Positions 27,092-35,230 of a stretch of 64,000 bases of DNA are shown here, in pieces. Every line of letters begins with the position of its first letter. Positions within the stretch are counted from its first letter, which is position 1. Made by a program: the position numbers and the translations under genes. Under the pieces are notes generated by a model that was given only the letters and a program-made list of their open reading frames with translations, was not told the DNA's origin and did not search any database. The stretch lies in contig CALULA010000001.1 in the NCBI GenBank assembly GCA_944321365.1, positions 372,001-436,000 of the forward strand. The letters run 5' to 3'. Origin of the DNA: an uncultured Paraprevotella sp. GTDB taxonomy: Bacteria > Bacteroidota > Bacteroidia > Bacteroidales > Bacteroidaceae.

Positions 27092-27865
27092 TTATTTTTT
27101 CAAATCGTCCATCAGACGCTCCAGTGCGGCATTCGTGTCGTGACACTCATCGAGCAATGTAACGAAACGGCTGCCGATGATGGCTCCCGCCGCATTCTGC
27201 CATGCCGACTCCAGCGTCTGCCTGTTGCTGATGCCGAAGCCTATCATGCGCGGATGCTTCAGCTGCATCCGGTTGACGCGGTTGAAGTAGGCCTGCTTTT
27301 CGGCATTGAATTCCTTTTGCGCGCCTGTTGTGGAAGCTGACGATACCATATAGATAAACCCGTCGGTGTTCGCGTCAATGAACCGGATGCGTTCTTCGCT
27401 GGTTTCGGGCGTGATGAGCATGATGATTTTCAGTCCGTAGCGGTCGGCTATGGGCTTGTAGGTCTTCATATAGTCGTGGAAGGGCAGGTCTGGGATGATG
27501 ACGCCGTCTATGCCGCATGCGTTACAGCTTTGGCAGAAAGCCTCAAAACCATAATGGAAGATGGGATTCAGGTAGCCCATCAGAATGAGCGGTATGTCCA
27601 CATCGCGGCGGATGTCTGTCAGCTGATCGAACAGCCGTCGCAGACTCATGCCGTTTTTCAGTGCTTTTGTGGCTGCGTCCTGTACGACGGGACCATCGGC
27701 CATGGGGTCGCTGAAGGGGATGCCCACTTCGATCATGTCTATACCGTTGTGGGCCAGCGTGCGGATGATGTCAGCCGTTCCCTCGGCGGTGAGGTGTCCT
27801 GCACAGAAATACAGGGAGAGGATATGCTCTTTCTTTTTGTTGAATAGTTCGTTGATTCTGTTCAT
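27092..27865 (-). CDS. trpA: Tryptophan synthase alpha subunit
   Basis: A 257-residue TIM-barrel enzyme that cleaves indole-3-glycerol phosphate to indole and glyceraldehyde 3-phosphate and passes indole to TrpB. Visible: MIEVGIPFSDPMADGPVVQ with catalytic Glu and substrate residues, LMGYLNPIFHYGFEAF, GVIIPDLPFHD with the catalytic Asp, and MVSSASTTGAQ. It is the last gene of the trp operon, 19 bp after trpF. The alpha subunit is separated from its partner trpB, which is first in the operon. Confidence 0.96.
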   Translation of the reverse strand: MNRINELFNKKKEHILSLYFCAGHLTAEGTADIIRTLAHNGIDMIEVGIPFSDPMADGPVVQDAATKALKNGMSLRRLFDQLTDIRRDVDIPLILMGYLNPIFHYGFEAFCQSCNACGIDGVIIPDLPFHDYMKTYKPIADRYGLKIIMLITPETSEERIRFIDANTDGFIYMVSSASTTGAQKEFNAEKQAYFNRVNRMQLKHPRMIGFGISNRQTLESAWQNAAGAIIGSRFVTLLDECHDTNAALERLMDDLKK

Positions 27866-27884
27866 AATGTATTGTTTTATAGTT

Positions 27885-28532
27885 CTATACTCTTGTTTGT
27901 TTACGTAGTTCTTCCATAAATGTGCGCAGGCTTTCCACGTCCTTCAGGCCCGGTGAACATTCAAAGCGGGAGTTGATGTCTATGCCGGCCCAGCAGGGGT
28001 GGTCGAAGCGGGCGAGCCGTTCCACATCGTCCGGTCCGATGCCTCCGCTGAGCAGAAACGGCCTATGTCCATGGTAGTGTCGCAGTGTCGTCCAGTTGAA
28101 ACTCCGTCCGCTGCCGCCTTTCCCGGCACATTGCGTGTCGAAGAGGAAGTAGTCGCACACCGGGGCATAGGCTTCTGTGTCGGGGAACGGTGCGTCGGCG
28201 GCGATGCTGAAAGTCTTAATCACTTCTACGTCGCGTCCGTTCTGCGAGAGTGTTTCCCTGATGCGGCGGCAGAAGTCAGGAGTTTCCTCTCCGTGCAATT
28301 GGATGAGCTGCAGTCCGAGCCTTTCTGTCTGGCAGGCCACATATTGCAGTTCCGGGTTGACGAACACCCCCACGCGGCGGCAATGCTCCGGCAGATAGGC
28401 GGGTGTTTCAATGACATGCCGTCGGGAGCCTTCCCAGCAGATGAACCCCATCCAGTCCGGTGCAAGCTGTTCCACTCGCTTTATGTTGTCGGCTTCGCGC
28501 ATGCCGCAGATTTTGATGATGAGGCGTCTCAT
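27885..28532 (-). CDS. trpF: Phosphoribosylanthranilate isomerase
   Basis: A 215-residue TIM-barrel isomerase converting phosphoribosylanthranilate to the enol CdRP, step three from anthranilate. Signatures: IKICGMREADNI with the catalytic Cys, LIQLHGEETPDFC, FLLSGGIGPDDV and GIDINSRFECSPGLKD. It is a separate gene rather than fused to trpC as in enterobacteria. Its ATG overlaps the trpC stop by 4 bp (ATGA), so translation is coupled. Confidence 0.95.
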   Translation of the reverse strand: MRRLIIKICGMREADNIKRVEQLAPDWMGFICWEGSRRHVIETPAYLPEHCRRVGVFVNPELQYVACQTERLGLQLIQLHGEETPDFCRRIRETLSQNGRDVEVIKTFSIAADAPFPDTEAYAPVCDYFLFDTQCAGKGGSGRSFNWTTLRHYHGHRPFLLSGGIGPDDVERLARFDHPCWAGIDINSRFECSPGLKDVESLRTFMEELRKQTRV

Positions 28533-29368
28533 TGTTCTACGGCTTTGATGAAGGTTCTCAAGGCTTGTCCGGGGTCGGGTTGCCGCATGAATGTCTCTCC
28601 GATCAGAAAGCCGCGGAAGCCGGCGTCGCGCAACAGCCTGACGGTCTCAGGGTCTGATATGCCGCTTTCCGACACCAGCAACAGGTTGTCCGGCAACCGT
28701 GATGCGATGCGGAAGGAGTTTTCCACGTTCGTGTGGAATGTGCCGAGGTGGCGGTTGTTTACGCCCAGCATGTCGGGCTGTGTGTCCGCATAGGGCAGTT
28801 CTGTTTCGCTATGGATTTCCAGCAGCACTTCCATGCCCAGCTCGTGGGCTTTCCGTGTGAGCCCGGTGCACTGGTCTTCGGTCAGGGCGGCGGCGATCAG
28901 CAAAACGGCATCCGCTCCTGCCTTCCGTGCCTGATAGAGCTGATATTCATCGATGATGAAATCTTTGCGCAGTATGGGGACATCCACAGCGGGACGCACT
29001 CGGCGGATGAAGTCAAGTTCGCCGCCGAAATAAGTGCGGTCGGTCAGTATCGACAGGGCCGATGCTCCGGCACGGGCGTATGTCGGGGGGATGACTTCCA
29101 CCTGGCCGTTCTGTCGGATCCAGCCTTTCGAGGGAGACTTCCGCTTGAATTCGGCGATGATGCCCGAACGGGAGCGGGCCAAAGCCTTTCGCATGGAGCG
29201 ACACTTGCGCAAAGTGCACTTATTTTCTTGATTTGATTGCGGTTGTTGGTCAGCATCGCTTAGCATTTTTTCCACTTCGCCATAGAGCTGTTGTGGGGGA
29301 ATCTGCTTTTTTTCCTCTTCTATCTCAATCCGTTTGTTGGCCAATATTTCTTCCAAAATGTCTTTCAT
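28529..29368 (-). CDS. trpC: Indole-3-glycerol phosphate synthase
   Basis: A 279-residue TIM-barrel enzyme that cyclises CdRP to indole-3-glycerol phosphate. Signatures: IIAEFKRKSPSKGWI with the catalytic Glu and Lys, ALSILTDRTYFGGEL, VPILRKDFIIDEYQ with the second Lys, and VSESGISDPETV. Residues about 40-55 hold a polar insert (DADQQPQSNQENK) relative to typical family members. It lies 9 bp after trpD. Confidence 0.95.
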   Translation of the reverse strand: MKDILEEILANKRIEIEEEKKQIPPQQLYGEVEKMLSDADQQPQSNQENKCTLRKCRSMRKALARSRSGIIAEFKRKSPSKGWIRQNGQVEVIPPTYARAGASALSILTDRTYFGGELDFIRRVRPAVDVPILRKDFIIDEYQLYQARKAGADAVLLIAAALTEDQCTGLTRKAHELGMEVLLEIHSETELPYADTQPDMLGVNNRHLGTFHTNVENSFRIASRLPDNLLLVSESGISDPETVRLLRDAGFRGFLIGETFMRQPDPGQALRTFIKAVEQ

Positions 29369-29377
29369 CGTTCTTTA

Positions 29378-30373
29378 TTAACCGTTGAGTTCTACATATT
29401 TTTTCAGGCAGGCCAGTGCCCGTCCGCTTTCCAGCGATTCGCGGGCAATGGCCAGACATTCTGCGATGTCCTTGTCGCGTTCGATCACCTTGATGGCAAA
29501 AGCTGCATTAGCCAGTACAACGTTCTTTCGGCTTTCCGTGCTGCGGTTTTCCAGAATACTGTCGAAGATTTCGGCAGCTTCCTCTACAGTCTTTCCGCCG
29601 AACAGCTCTTCGGGGCGCACCGCAGGCATACCGATGTCGGCGGGACGGAATATTTTCTCCATCGAATTGGCCTTTACCTTGAAGTTTCCGGTGAGTGATA
29701 TTTCGTCATATCCGTCGATGCTGTTTACGATGCCGTAGCCGATGCCCAATTTTTCGTAGACACTGCTGTACAGTCTCATCTGATTGAGGTTGGCCACGCC
29801 CAGCAACTGGTAGGCCGGCCTGCAGGGATTCACCAGTGGGCCTAACAGGTTGAAGCAAGTGGGAATCTGGAGCTGCTTGCGTACCGGTGCCACCGATTTC
29901 ATGCCATGGGCAAACAGTGGGGCATGCAGATAGGCAAAATGACAGACGTCCATGCTGTGGCGGAGCTTGTCTGTATCGGCGGTAAATTTTATGCCGTGCT
30001 GTTCCATGACATTGCTTGCGCCGGAGGTGGAAGTGGCTGCATAGTTGCCGTGCTTGGCAACGTGATAGCCGGCTCCCGCCACAACGAGGCAGGCACAGGT
30101 GGAGATGTTGAATGTGTTTTTTTCGTCTCCGCCGGTCCCTACGATGTCGATGACCTTATGGGGAGCGAAGTCTACAGGCTGTCCGGTTTCGATCAGCCCG
30201 TCGCACAGGCCGAGCAGCTCATCCACTTTGATGCCCCGCATGATGAGTCCGGTGAGCAATGAGCTGATTTGTACTGTGTTGTATTGTCCGTCTACGATGT
30301 TGTGGATGATCAGGCGGGTCTCTTCACGGCTCAACACTTCGCCGTTTACGATTCTTGTGAGTATTTTTTTCAT
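29378..30373 (-). CDS. trpD: Anthranilate phosphoribosyltransferase
   Basis: A 331-residue enzyme that joins anthranilate to PRPP. Signatures: DIVGTGGDEKNTFNIST (PRPP-binding GTGGD), KHGNYAATSTSGASNVME, and NLLGPLVNPCRPAYQLLGV. It is a free-standing protein, not fused to the glutamine amidotransferase. The order trpG, trpD, trpC is kept, with 12 bp after trpG and 9 bp before trpC. Confidence 0.95.
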   Translation of the reverse strand: MKKILTRIVNGEVLSREETRLIIHNIVDGQYNTVQISSLLTGLIMRGIKVDELLGLCDGLIETGQPVDFAPHKVIDIVGTGGDEKNTFNISTCACLVVAGAGYHVAKHGNYAATSTSGASNVMEQHGIKFTADTDKLRHSMDVCHFAYLHAPLFAHGMKSVAPVRKQLQIPTCFNLLGPLVNPCRPAYQLLGVANLNQMRLYSSVYEKLGIGYGIVNSIDGYDEISLTGNFKVKANSMEKIFRPADIGMPAVRPEELFGGKTVEEAAEIFDSILENRSTESRKNVVLANAAFAIKVIERDKDIAECLAIARESLESGRALACLKKYVELNG

Positions 30374-30385
30374 GTGGTGTCTGGT

Positions 30386-30973
30386 TTATAAGGATGATGC
30401 TGGAGTAGTTTTATGCCGCAGAAAGTTTTCCACAATATGGCGGCCGTCCGGTGTCAGCACGGATTCCGGGTGGAACTGTATGCCATGAATGTCATGGTTC
30501 CTGTGGCGCAAGGCCATGATTTGCCCCTCCTGGCTCCGGGCTGTAACCATCAGGCATTGCGGCAGTCCCTTGTCGGACACTATCCATGAGTGGTATCGTC
30601 CGACGGCTATTTGCCTGGGCAGCCCGTCGAAGAGATAGTCATCGCCGGTCAGCAGGCAGGGAGTCTGTACTCCGTGGAATACTTCGGGCAGATTGACCAG
30701 TTGCGCACCGAACGCTTCGCCTATGGCTTGATGGCCGAGGCAGACACCGAGCATGGGCTTGCGTCCGGCATAGGTGCGGATGACGTTCAGCAAAAGTCCG
30801 GCCTCTTCCGGTATGCCCGGCCCCGGACTAAGAATGATTTTGTCATAAGTCTCCAGTTCCTTCAGGGCGAAAGAGTCGTTGCGCAGCACGGTGACTTCTG
30901 CTCCACATTCCCGTATCAGATGGGAGAGATTGTAGGTGAAAGAGTCGTAATTGTCGATAATAACTGTTTTCAT
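30386..30973 (-). CDS. trpG: Anthranilate synthase component II (glutamine amidotransferase)
   Basis: A 195-residue class I glutamine amidotransferase that supplies ammonia to TrpE. Signatures: IIDNYDSFTYNL, LSPGPGIPEEAG, LGVCLGHQAIGEAFGA with the nucleophile Cys, and GIQFHPESVLT with the His-x-Glu pair. It could in principle also serve folate synthesis (PabA), but its place between trpE and trpD assigns it to tryptophan. It starts 23 bp after trpE. Confidence 0.94.
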   Translation of the reverse strand: MKTVIIDNYDSFTYNLSHLIRECGAEVTVLRNDSFALKELETYDKIILSPGPGIPEEAGLLLNVIRTYAGRKPMLGVCLGHQAIGEAFGAQLVNLPEVFHGVQTPCLLTGDDYLFDGLPRQIAVGRYHSWIVSDKGLPQCLMVTARSQEGQIMALRHRNHDIHGIQFHPESVLTPDGRHIVENFLRHKTTPASSL

Positions 30974-30996
30974 AAGGCTGTTTGTGTTGTGGATGT

Positions 30997-32397
30997 TTAC
31001 ATGTTCTCTGCCATTTGGATGGCGCGTCGCAGGGCACCCAGTTTGTTGTTGACTTCCTGTAATTCATATTCTTCGTTGCTTTTGGCTACGATGCCGCCTC
31101 CGGCTTGGAACCACAACTCGTTGTTGCGACTTACGAAAGTGCGGATCGTGATGGCCTGGTTCAATGAACCGTTCAGGCCGATGAAGCCGATGCACCCTCC
31201 GTATGCGCCGCGGTTGTGCGGCTCCAGCTCACTGATGAGTTGCATGGCCCGCACTTTGGGCGCACCCGACAAGGTTCCGGCCGGAAAGGTGTCTATGAAT
31301 GTTTTCACCGGATCGGCCTGCTCATCCAGTGTCCCGCTGACACGGCTCACCAGGTGAATTACATGACTGTAATACTGCATGTCCTTATAGAAGTCCACTT
31401 TCACGTCGTGACAGTTGCGGCTCAGGTCGTTGCGGGCCAGGTCTACCAACATGACATGTTCGGCATTTTCTTTCGGATCGTTTTTCAGAAACCGTGCGTT
31501 CTGTTCGTCCAGTGCCATGTTGCCCGTGCGTCTGGTAGTTCCGGCGATGGGGTCGATGTAGGCAGTCCGTCCCTCGATGCGGCAGTGTGTTTCGGGCGAA
31601 GAACCGAAGATGCGGAAGCCGCCAAAGTCGAAATAGAACAGATAGGGGCTGGGATTGATGCTCCGTAAGGCACGGTAGAGCTTGAAATCGTCGCCCTCGT
31701 AGCATTGTACGAAACGGCGGCTCAGCACAATCTGGAACACGTCGCCACGCAGACAGTGCGCGATGCCTTGCCGGATATTCGCTTTGTGCTCTTCGTCGGT
31801 CAAGGTGCTGGTCGTTTCTCCTACAGGATGAAAATCGTATACGGCAAAGTTGTGGTTGCGTATCACTTTCTCCAGTTCGTCGAGAGTGTCCGGCTCGTTG
31901 TTCTCGATGAGCTCAGTGAGCGTGAGTGTGTTGTTGAAGTGGTCGAAAACGATAACATATTTATACAGGATATACAGGATGTCCGGGGCATCGTTGCGCT
32001 CCTCCATGCTGTCTTTGATAGGGATATGTTCAAAATAGTGTACGGCATTGAACGAAGTGTAGCCGTAGAGTCCGCAGAATTCTCTTTTATCTCCTTCCAC
32101 TTGAAAGCATTGCAGAAAGTCGTTGATGGCCCGTTCGACGGGATAGTCTTCGTTGATGCTCCGGCTGGTTTGCGTGCCGTCGGGCAGCAATGCGGTAGAC
32201 ATGCCGTGTCCGATACTGATGCTGCCTATCGGATTCAGGGCGATGAATGAACGGCTGTTGTCATGACTGTGGTAATCAGAGCTTTCCATAAGTGCGCTTT
32301 GCGGATAAAGGTCGCGGACTTTCAGATAGGTGCTCACGGGAGTGTACAAGTCGCCGAGGATCTGTCGGCTGGCTACGTTATAGTGAAAAGTATTCAT
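30997..32397 (-). CDS. trpE: Anthranilate synthase component I
   Basis: A 466-residue chorismate-utilising enzyme forming anthranilate from chorismate and ammonia. The N-terminal half contains the LMESSDYHSHDNSRSF region, a variant of the LLES tryptophan feedback-binding motif. The C-terminal half has IVLSRRFVQ, LFYFDFGGFRIFGSSPETHCRIEG (read in parts), IAGTTRRTGN, HVMLVDLARNDLSR and FPAGTLSGAPKVRAM, all typical of the active site. It is second in the operon, 33 bp after trpB. Confidence 0.95.
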   Translation of the reverse strand: MNTFHYNVASRQILGDLYTPVSTYLKVRDLYPQSALMESSDYHSHDNSRSFIALNPIGSISIGHGMSTALLPDGTQTSRSINEDYPVERAINDFLQCFQVEGDKREFCGLYGYTSFNAVHYFEHIPIKDSMEERNDAPDILYILYKYVIVFDHFNNTLTLTELIENNEPDTLDELEKVIRNHNFAVYDFHPVGETTSTLTDEEHKANIRQGIAHCLRGDVFQIVLSRRFVQCYEGDDFKLYRALRSINPSPYLFYFDFGGFRIFGSSPETHCRIEGRTAYIDPIAGTTRRTGNMALDEQNARFLKNDPKENAEHVMLVDLARNDLSRNCHDVKVDFYKDMQYYSHVIHLVSRVSGTLDEQADPVKTFIDTFPAGTLSGAPKVRAMQLISELEPHNRGAYGGCIGFIGLNGSLNQAITIRTFVSRNNELWFQAGGGIVAKSNEEYELQEVNNKLGALRRAIQMAENM

Positions 32398-32430: not shown

Positions 32431-33630
32431 TCAGTCTTTGATGCCTTTGTCATTTTGGTGGGCCAGATACGTGTCGAGGTCTTTGTCACCCCGTCCGCTT
32501 ACGGTGAGTACCACCACGTCGTCTTTTTTGAACCGTATTTTGGGCAGCATGCCGAGTGCATGTGCAGATTCCAGAGCTGGAATGATGCCCTCCAGACGAG
32601 TCAGTTCAAAGGCGGCACGCAGAGCCTCATCGTCATTGATGGCCATGACGGTGGCCCTGCGGTTTTCGGCCAGACAGGCGTGAAGCGGACCTATGCCGGG
32701 ATAGTCCAGACCGGCCGACAGAGAATAAGGCTCTATGATCTGGCCGTCTTCGTTCTGCAGTACCAATGTGCGGCTTCCGTGCAGTATACCCAGCGAACCG
32801 CGTTGTATGGTGGCTGCGGTCTCTCCACTGTCAATGCCGTGTCCGCCTGCCTCGCCAAGGTAAATCTTCACCCGCAAGTCGTCGACATAATGATAGATTG
32901 TTCCGGCTGCGTTCGACCCGCCGCCCACACAGGCCATGAGACAATCCGGATAATCGCGTCCTTCCTTTTCCAGCAGTTGTTCACGGATCTCGCTGCTGAT
33001 GACGCTTTGCAGGCGGGCGACCAAGTCGGGATAAGGGTGCGGTCCGACGGTCGATCCGATGATATAGAACGTATCTTCAGGATGACAGCACCAATCTCTG
33101 ATGGCCTCGTTGGTGGCATCCTTCAGCGTCTTGTTGCCACTCTCCACCGGAAACACCTCGGCACCCAGCATCTTCATGCGCTCCACGTTGACGTGCTGTC
33201 GTTTGACGTCTGTGGCTCCCATGTACACCCGACAGGGCATGTCCAGCAAGGCGCAGACGGTAGCCGTGGCCACTCCGTGTTGTCCGGCTCCGGTTTCGGC
33301 GATGATACGTGTTTTTCCCATCTTGCGGGCCAGGAGAATCTGTCCGATGGCGTTGTTGATTTTGTGCGCTCCGGTGTGGTTCAGGTCCTCGCGTTTCAGG
33401 TAAAGTCTGCAACCATACTTCTCGCTCATTCTTCGGGCATAGTAGAGAGGAGAGGGGCGTCCCACGTAATCTTTCAACAGTGCGTGGTATTCGTCTTTGA
33501 ATTCTTTGCTTTCCAGAATCGGCAGATAAGCCTCTTTCAGGTTTTCAACGGTCTTGTAGAGAATTTCCGGCACGTATGCACCGCCGAATTCTCCATAATA
33601 GCCTTCATTGTCTACGTGATAAGTTTTCAT
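32431..33630 (-). CDS. trpB: Tryptophan synthase beta subunit
   Basis: A 399-residue PLP enzyme joining indole with serine. Signatures: [20 protein letters not shown] with the PLP-binding Lys, [25 protein letters not shown] phosphate loop and [15 protein letters not shown]. It is the first structural gene of the operon, 33 bp below the T run of the leader terminator, so it is directly exposed to attenuation. Placing trpB first gives the order BEGDCFA, seen in Bacteroidales. Confidence 0.96.
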
Positions 33631-33662: not shown

Positions 33663-33698
33663 AAATAAAAAAAGGCCTGTCGTGAATACGACAGGCCT
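33663..33698 (-). terminator. trp attenuator terminator
   Basis: An 11-bp perfect GC-rich stem (33673-33683 with 33688-33698) has a 4-nt loop. Read on the minus strand it runs directly into a T-rich tract (33663-33673). It lies 40 bp after the leader-peptide stop codon and 33 bp before trpB, the position of an attenuator. Confidence 0.9.
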
Positions 33699-33737
33699 CC
33701 AATATCCTTAGATGAGTACATATACGGGGCTTGCTCC

Positions 33738-33797
33738 TCACGACGTTTGCGGTCTTGAGTTGCGCCACCACCAATATGTATTCTGATTCTGGTACAT
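33738..33797 (-). CDS. trpL: trp operon leader peptide
   Basis: A 19-codon reading frame, MYQNQNTYWWWRNSRPQTS followed by TGA, with three consecutive TGG tryptophan codons at positions 9-11 (33765-33773). It starts 34 bp after a promoter-like -7 element and ends 40 bp before an intrinsic terminator that precedes trpB. The last codons and stop (33738-33744, minus strand GTCGTGA) are complementary to TCACGAC at 33679-33685 in the terminator loop and 3' arm. A ribosome stalled at the Trp codons would leave this segment free to break the terminator; a ribosome at the stop codon would cover it. The tandem Trp codons are seen directly; the switching is inference. Confidence 0.88.
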   Translation of the reverse strand: MYQNQNTYWWWRNSRPQTS

Positions 33798-33830
33798 GTT
33801 ATTTTTCTTCTTGTTCTTGATTCTTGGCTG

Positions 33831-33865
33831 CGAATATACGGATTTTTTATGAATGTGTAAACAAA
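33831..33865 (-). promoter_or_regulatory. Probable trp operon promoter
   Basis: On the minus strand TATATTCG (33831-33838) differs from TAnnTTTG at one base, with TTTG at 33862-33865, 23 bp upstream. It is 34 bp before the leader ATG. The rest of the 321-bp gap is the leader region. Confidence 0.5.
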
Positions 33866-33951: not shown

Positions 33952-34494
33952 TCACTTCCGGTTTTCCGGCTCTTCTACACTGAATCCGTAGGCTTTGAAA
34001 TCACCGTATGCATTGACAGGTTGTTGCGACAAGTCCACCAGTATGTATTCTCCTGCAGGAAGCGGTGTGAGCGGTGTTACGGCAAATCCCATCTGCGGGA
34101 GGTTTTCTATGCGGAACAGTCCCAGTTCTACACGGGTATACTCACAGTCCCTGAGTTCGGTCTTCGGCAGATAGCGGCAGCCGCGTTTCCTTTTCAGCCG
34201 GACGATGGCATAGTCGTTCAGTTCCTGAGTGGTGGGATAAATGGCGAATCTGGGTTGAGGACCGGTGACTTGATGAGCTTTGTCGCCTGAAAAATAGCGT
34301 CTGATTTTCCGTCCTACGCTGATTCCTTGAATGTCCCATCCTTTTTTTATTTCGCTCTGACTGGTCTGGGCGTGCATGGTGAACGTGGAGTCGCCTACGA
34401 AGATGAATACTGTTGGCGGCGGTTGTTTCATCTGAGCCTGCATCTGCACGAGCATGATGAGTGAAAGGCAAAGTGTTGAGAGCAATCTTTTCAT
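33952..34494 (-). CDS. Secreted protein of unknown function
   Basis: A 180-residue protein with a signal peptide (MKRLLSTLCLSLIMLVQMQA) and no recognised domain. ATG 34494 gives the signal peptide; an upstream in-frame ATG at 34587 does not and overlaps the previous gene. The mature part has short beta-rich blocks (PTVFIFVGDSTFTMHAQTSQ; FAIYPTTQELNDYAIVRLKR; PLPAGEYILVDLSQQ), which suggests a small extracytoplasmic beta protein. It follows the B3/B4 gene by 70 bp on the same strand. Confidence 0.7.
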   Translation of the reverse strand: MKRLLSTLCLSLIMLVQMQAQMKQPPPTVFIFVGDSTFTMHAQTSQSEIKKGWDIQGISVGRKIRRYFSGDKAHQVTGPQPRFAIYPTTQELNDYAIVRLKRKRGCRYLPKTELRDCEYTRVELGLFRIENLPQMGFAVTPLTPLPAGEYILVDLSQQPVNAYGDFKAYGFSVEEPENRK

Positions 34495-34564
34495 GTGCTT
34501 ATGGATTTGTGTCATCTGTCTGGCGGGGTTGCGGCATTTGATGCTGTCGTGACGGTAATGTGTA

Positions 34565-35230
34565 TCAGTACAGGTGGATGGTACCACCGTCGGAGGCGGT
34601 GTATTTCTTCAGCAGTTCCTGTATGTATTTTGCACAGGCCAGCACTTGCCCGCTGTTGCCGTCGTATCCGTTGACGAGAGCCAGCAGATGCGTTGTCGAT
34701 GTGCTGAGTTTCGTCCGTTCATGATCGCTGGTGGGCGTACCGATGCCTCCGTTGCGGTCGCGGTATACGGGCAGGCCATCTATGTTGAGCTGGCCGCGTC
34801 CGATGCCTTCGTATGGTTCTCCTGCCTTTCCGATGCCCAGTGTGAGGACATCGCCTGCGATTTTGTCGGCGTCGAATCCGCCGATGGAATAGCCATAGGC
34901 GATGGAGGCCAGGTTAATGAGATCTACGGCGGTGTTGATTTGGTAAAGGTCGTGTCCTTTCAGCATGCGGCGCACCAGGGCCTCGGCAGACGGGCGATAG
35001 CGGCTGGGGTCTTTGCCGCATGCTTTATATACGGCGCGGGTGGCCTGTATGGCGGGCATTTCCTTGAGTGATTCCGTAGTATATTTCCGGCAGTAGTCTG
35101 CCTGGAAATTTCGGATTTCGTCCCAAAGCGGGGCAGAATAGGTCGTGTTACAGAAGGTCGCTTCCAAGGCTGCTCCTACAAAAGTCGGGCATACGCTGCG
35201 TATTTCTTCCGAAACCTGAATGTGTATCAT
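34565..35230 (-). CDS. B3/B4 domain protein
   Basis: A 221-residue protein of the B3/B4 family, a fold found in the beta subunit of phenylalanyl-tRNA synthetase and as stand-alone proteins proposed to edit mischarged tRNA. Visible family stretches: AIQATRAVYKACGKDPSRYR, SAEALVRRMLKGHDLYQINT and VDLINLASIAYGYSIGGFDA. It is cytoplasmic with no signal peptide. It sits between the S41 homologue (33 bp upstream) and the secreted 180-residue protein. The editing role is a family-level suggestion only. Confidence 0.82.
   Translation of the reverse strand: MIHIQVSEEIRSVCPTFVGAALEATFCNTTYSAPLWDEIRNFQADYCRKYTTESLKEMPAIQATRAVYKACGKDPSRYRPSAEALVRRMLKGHDLYQINTAVDLINLASIAYGYSIGGFDADKIAGDVLTLGIGKAGEPYEGIGRGQLNIDGLPVYRDRNGGIGTPTSDHERTKLSTSTTHLLALVNGYDGNSGQVLACAKYIQELLKKYTASDGGTIHLY

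Follow-up and report, generated by a model that had tools for sequence, protein, structure and literature searches.

A Bacteroid-trp homologue upstream of the trp operon of an uncultured Paraprevotella: a probable ribosome-mediated attenuator with a putative antiterminator reaching into the terminator loop

The leader region upstream of trpB in the window (the whole 64,000-nucleotide stretch analyzed here) is in all likelihood a ribosome-mediated transcription attenuator of the trp operon, homologous to the Bacteroid-trp family RF01692 (probability roughly 0.9). The conserved Trp codons, the terminator, the trp synteny and the mutually exclusive pairings all fit this type of control. What the analysis adds is a proposed antiterminator, which is missing from the Rfam structure and was missed by the original prediction. 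The features, all on the minus strand, are the following:

33831–33861 (-), candidate promoter: -33 element TTTA at 33861–33858, 19-nt spacer, -7 element TATATTCG at 33838–33831 (from the sequence and same-genus relatives)
33738–33797 (-), leader ORF MYQNQNTYWWWRNSRPQTS: 19 codons and stop, ATG at 33797, TGA at 33740–33738; the Trp run and the core of the peptide are conserved across the 177 leaders parsed
33765–33773 (-), three tandem Trp codons, the regulatory codons 9–11 (from the sequence; runs in relatives)
33752–33779 (-), strand 1: 1a ACAUAUUGG... and 1b CUCAAGAC (33759–33752), from folding; the 5' side of the RF01692 hairpin
33737–33744 (-), strand 2a GUCGUGAG, overlapping the stop codon; partner 1b or the terminator loop and 3' arm (folding and comparison)
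33726–33734 (-), strand 2b GCAAGCCCC; partner the terminator 5' arm GGAGGCCUGU (folding and comparison)
33718–33729 (-), 3' side of the 1:2 protector hairpin, CCCCGUAUAUGU; partner ACAUAUUGG (folding and RF01692)
33667–33700 (-), intrinsic terminator: strand 3 at 33700–33688, loop AUUC at 33687–33684, strand 4 from 33683, T run at 33673–33667
32431–33630 (-), trpB, first gene of the proposed regulated operon (PF00291, 9e-41; operon order)
27092–32397 (-), trpE, trpG, trpD, trpC, trpF and trpA (Pfam for trpE, trpG and trpD; PF00290 for trpA)

The original prediction described a 19-codon leader with TGG TGG TGG upstream of trpB and, some 40 bp after it, an 11-bp GC-rich terminator. Both were found where it had placed them, on the minus strand, which it left unstated. 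The terminator hairpin, GGAGGCCUGUCGU-AUUC-ACGACAGGCC followed by the T run, begins 37 nt past the leader stop codon, and its stem contains 11 Watson–Crick pairs, or 13 when two G-U pairs are counted. Two features expected of ribosome-mediated attenuators, a cluster of Trp codons in a short leader and a terminator before the first gene, are both present. The fold of leader plus terminator has -54.9 kcal/mol (z -3.15), matched by none of 200 shuffles, and an ATG-initiated ORF containing TGGTGGTGG with a terminator at most 150 nt away occurs once in the window and in 0 of 60 dinucleotide shuffles of it. The interval originally pointed out (33663–33865) also includes the promoter-like sequence, which is of the Bacteroidota type, with one mismatch to the consensus in each element. 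Same-genus relatives carry the consensus TTTG ... TAnnTTTG at this position, with TATATTTG as the -7 element where the window has TATATTCG; given one substitution per element, the promoter of the window may be weaker than theirs. Downstream of the terminator lies a full trpBEGDCFA operon ending near 27092, whose products make the amino acid that would be sensed, tryptophan; trpC and trpF were assigned by position and a reading of the translations rather than by profile search.

The window element is a homologue of RF01692, the Bacteroidetes trp leader described by Weinberg et al. in 2010 (PMC2864571); the family is already known and the element itself is not new. It aligns over the full length of the model (1–131) with a score of 44.8 bits, below the gathering cut-off of 49 bits, which is a threshold for annotation and not for mechanism; the E-value is 0.013 for 16 kb and 5e-4 genome-wide. 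The window leader aligns with those of Paraprevotella clara, and same-genus leaders at trpB exceed the cut-off (55.8 and 55.5 bits), so that homology and synteny with accepted members are both found. With RF01692, the window shares the phylum Bacteroidota, the location upstream of trp genes, the Trp-codon leader, the same 1:2 hairpin and the blocks UGGUGGUG, GUCGUAAG and GGCUUGUC. In the RF01692 consensus structure, by contrast, the protector hairpin alone is paired, and the model ends at the first half of the terminator, with no antiterminator. A GlmZ identity for the same stretch was rejected as a chance match (17.6 vs. 60 bits).

A survey with RF01692, using strict filters by which weak matches are lost, gave matches in 90 genomes of the family (301 surveyed), 53 of the order (344) and 47 of the phylum (395). 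From these, 177 leaders (91 nonredundant) with Trp runs and terminators were parsed after relaxing the terminator criteria; seven loci were left unparsed. The original prediction had suggested comparing the leader frames of relatives, and this comparison bears it out: all 177 hold Trp runs or near-runs, of three residues in 124 and of two in 51. As only leaders with WW or W.W and a terminator were accepted in the parsing, these two traits are not independent evidence; the independent evidence among the parsed sequences is the conserved peptide core, the spacing and the synteny. The core N-T-Y-W-W-W-R is conserved, while the frame and the C-terminus are variable, and the next detected trp match is a trp gene in 164 of 177 cases (trpB 106, trpE 54, trpD 4). 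By sequence and comparison, the leader ORF, its Trp codons, the terminator and the downstream trp genes are shown to be conserved.

When charged Trp-tRNA is scarce, the ribosome would stall on codons 9–11 and cover strand 1. Strand 2, left free, would pair with the terminator as it emerges, from the 5' arm through the loop to the beginning of the 3' arm, and, with the antiterminator formed, RNA polymerase would proceed into trpB. When the leader is not translated, the 1:2 hairpin would form and transcription would stop. The antiterminator is a necessary part of this scheme, because the layout without it would be no switch. Three alternative pairings are supported by comparison and folding: the protector 1:2, the antiterminator 2:(3 + loop + start of 4) and the terminator 3:4.

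Equilibrium folding of the full transcript was uninformative: a finished strand 4 always made the terminator the more stable structure, and it was never disrupted when the complete leader was folded from successive 5' ends. Nascent 3' ends were therefore folded with a ribosome mask, for which a footprint reaching 16 nt upstream and 14 nt downstream from the A-site codon's first base was assumed. When any of Trp codons 9–11 occupies the A site and the RNA ends 6 nt into strand 4, the antiterminator dominates, with about 16 pairs in a whole fold of -22.2 kcal/mol, and hardly any 3:4 pairing is left. A ribosome whose A site holds the stop codon, or the lack of any ribosome, gives 3:4 pairing and no antiterminator. 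Constrained folding and covariation provide, computationally, mutually exclusive antiterminator and terminator structures selected by ribosome position. Since the complete terminator is always favored at equilibrium, any switching would have to take place during transcription, which is also how the E. coli leader works.

The sequence GUCGUGAG, around the leader stop codon, is complementary to UUCACGAC, which spans the terminator loop and the first part of the 3' arm. In relatives, the conserved RNA block GUCGURAG lies near the leader stop codon, with the same complementarity. At 33 loci, this block is kept with the stop codon lying outside it, upstream in 6 and downstream in 27, which indicates conservation as RNA and not as peptide. 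In the latter 27, among them L032, L044, L048, L049, L067 and L088, the leader frame is still open across strand 2 and ends only beyond it; masking by a ribosome at the stop codon cannot operate there exactly as in the window, and a different basal level is expected. Compensated pairs are found at several loci: UUGUGAG/CUCACAA (L119), UUUCGUGAG/CUCACGAAA (L086), AUCGUGAG/CUCACGAU (L083), GAGAGGU/ACCUCUC (L157) and AUGUGGC/GCCACAU (L186). The Bacteroid-trp antiterminator probably has a common form throughout the phylum: RNA around the stop codon would pair with the terminator loop, the 3' arm and the 5' arm, the choice of stop codon (UAA or UGA) would co-evolve with the loop, and the loop would offer strand 2 a toehold from which to prevail ahead of terminator closure.

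The most serious competitor accepts attenuation and makes the 2b:3 helix alone the antiterminator, as in E. coli, the similarity between stop region and terminator being a by-product of repeats. The canonical GUCGU is indeed common to the leader and the terminator arm, 2b:3 forms first among the antiterminator helices in the folding series, and some distant leaders, such as L179, L183 and L185, seem to rely solely on a 2:3 helix. Against this stand the divergent members L083, L086, L149 and L186, in which the stem differs and the complement lies at the loop or the other arm, while the match to the leader remains exact. The loop region by itself, in a test of own against swapped partners, also gives z -7.5. 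The 2b:3 helix is an unlikely sole antiterminator. For the whole leader–terminator duplex over 91 nonredundant loci, own partners average -16.08 kcal/mol and swapped ones -13.49 (z -8.7; 0 of 20,000 permutations as strong); both sets of permutations ignore relatedness. Ranked among all 91, the own partner has a median place of just 20, because the consensus is common to most loci. Some Bacteroides show weak 2a pairing (loop CACCAAG), a point against the proposed scheme.

The exchange between stop codon and loop was also followed in motif-anchored columns. The middle base of the stop codon is paired in 77 of 80 nonredundant loci vs. 64 in shuffles, which ignore relatedness, with 26 double changes. 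On a trpB tree of 55 loci, the exchange comprises five to six changes, with one independent pair on supported branches: too few for significance to be reached. As this column is weak on the tree, it cannot by itself carry the case for the loop-pairing antiterminator, which depends on how widely different compensated pairs occur.

An additional role in trans of the released leader RNA or peptide has a reported precedent in peTrpL of Sinorhizobium (PMC7298713), and the conserved N-T-Y-W-W-W-R core would suit it. RNA pairing can account for much of the peptide conservation (ACAUAUUGG is strand 1), and the leader frame and C-terminus vary; such a role appears improbable.

It is more improbable still that the hairpin is a constitutive terminator, for an upstream gene or stray transcription, with an incidental Trp-rich ORF. 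The terminator does always form at equilibrium, and a same-strand ORF (211 aa, 33952–34587, minus strand; no match in a Pfam search) ends upstream of the leader at 33952, but the promoter-like sequence separates the two, the layout is absent from shuffles, and the Trp runs, their distance to the terminator and the downstream trp genes are conserved phylum-wide. The conserved Trp codons and strand 2 would also be left unexplained. Ribosome-free control through a Trp- or tRNA-binding protein or RNA (TRAP, T-box, TrpR, a riboswitch), by which trp genes are regulated elsewhere, is very unlikely: searches of the 99.9% complete genome for TrpR, TRAP and T-box gave no match where control genomes matched, and a translated Trp run would be superfluous.

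The E. coli trpL leader has in common with the window Trp codons in a short leader, strands 1–4 and a terminator before the first structural gene. It contains two Trp codons instead of three, and its stop codon lies just before strand 2, whereas that of the window is inside it. The antiterminator proposed here, unlike that of trpL, spans the terminator loop into the 3' arm. In the window, the first gene is trpB instead of trpE, and no TrpR was found in the genome.

The original prediction knew of no experimentally studied example in Bacteroidales. This stands in so far as no direct tryptophan-response experiment in this order was found in the open-access literature, but the novelty was overstated, RF01692 having been published in 2010. 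A 2020 map of B. thetaiotaomicron mentions short ORFs resembling attenuation leaders, though not trp (PMC7366714). In Flavobacterium psychrophilum, also a member of the Bacteroidota, with leader peptides at amino-acid operons and Bacteroid-trp upstream of trp, two papers offer an explicit comparison of Bacteroid-trp with the E. coli trp leader (2019, PMC6414381) and strong clues from the transcriptome for leader-peptide attenuation before amino-acid operons (2021, PMC9723704); these attenuators belong to a different class member, and the evidence given there is transcriptome or annotation.

Attenuation needs ribosome and RNA polymerase to be in step. In Bacteroidota, translation initiates largely without Shine–Dalgarno pairing, and the transcription machinery is distinctive. 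A structurally defined trp attenuator present throughout the phylum would be a ready reporter for the coupling of the two machines there. The proposed antiterminator gives exact compensatory mutations for testing and would complete the Rfam model.

A histidine leader (five His codons) was sought in the same genome, and only long reading frames were found. In nine of the trp leaders (L012, L048, L051, L053, L055, L056, L059, L060 and L068), FFWW (Phe-Phe-Trp-Trp) replaces Tyr-Trp-Trp-Trp, and phenylalanine starvation might also relieve attenuation there. In Paraprevotella clara and a relative, trpD is immediately preceded by another Trp leader with its terminator, almost identical to that at trpB and some 5 kb beyond it (L021, G012:C39:114978-115120; L077, G007:C6:36574-36712); this internal duplicate is absent from the operon of the window. 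P. xylaniphila has two matches on one contig (L188 and L195). A Paraprevotella-type trp leader was also found in a record titled 'Clostridium sp.' (L187, JAMPGY010000008.1), a MAG that is probably mislabelled.
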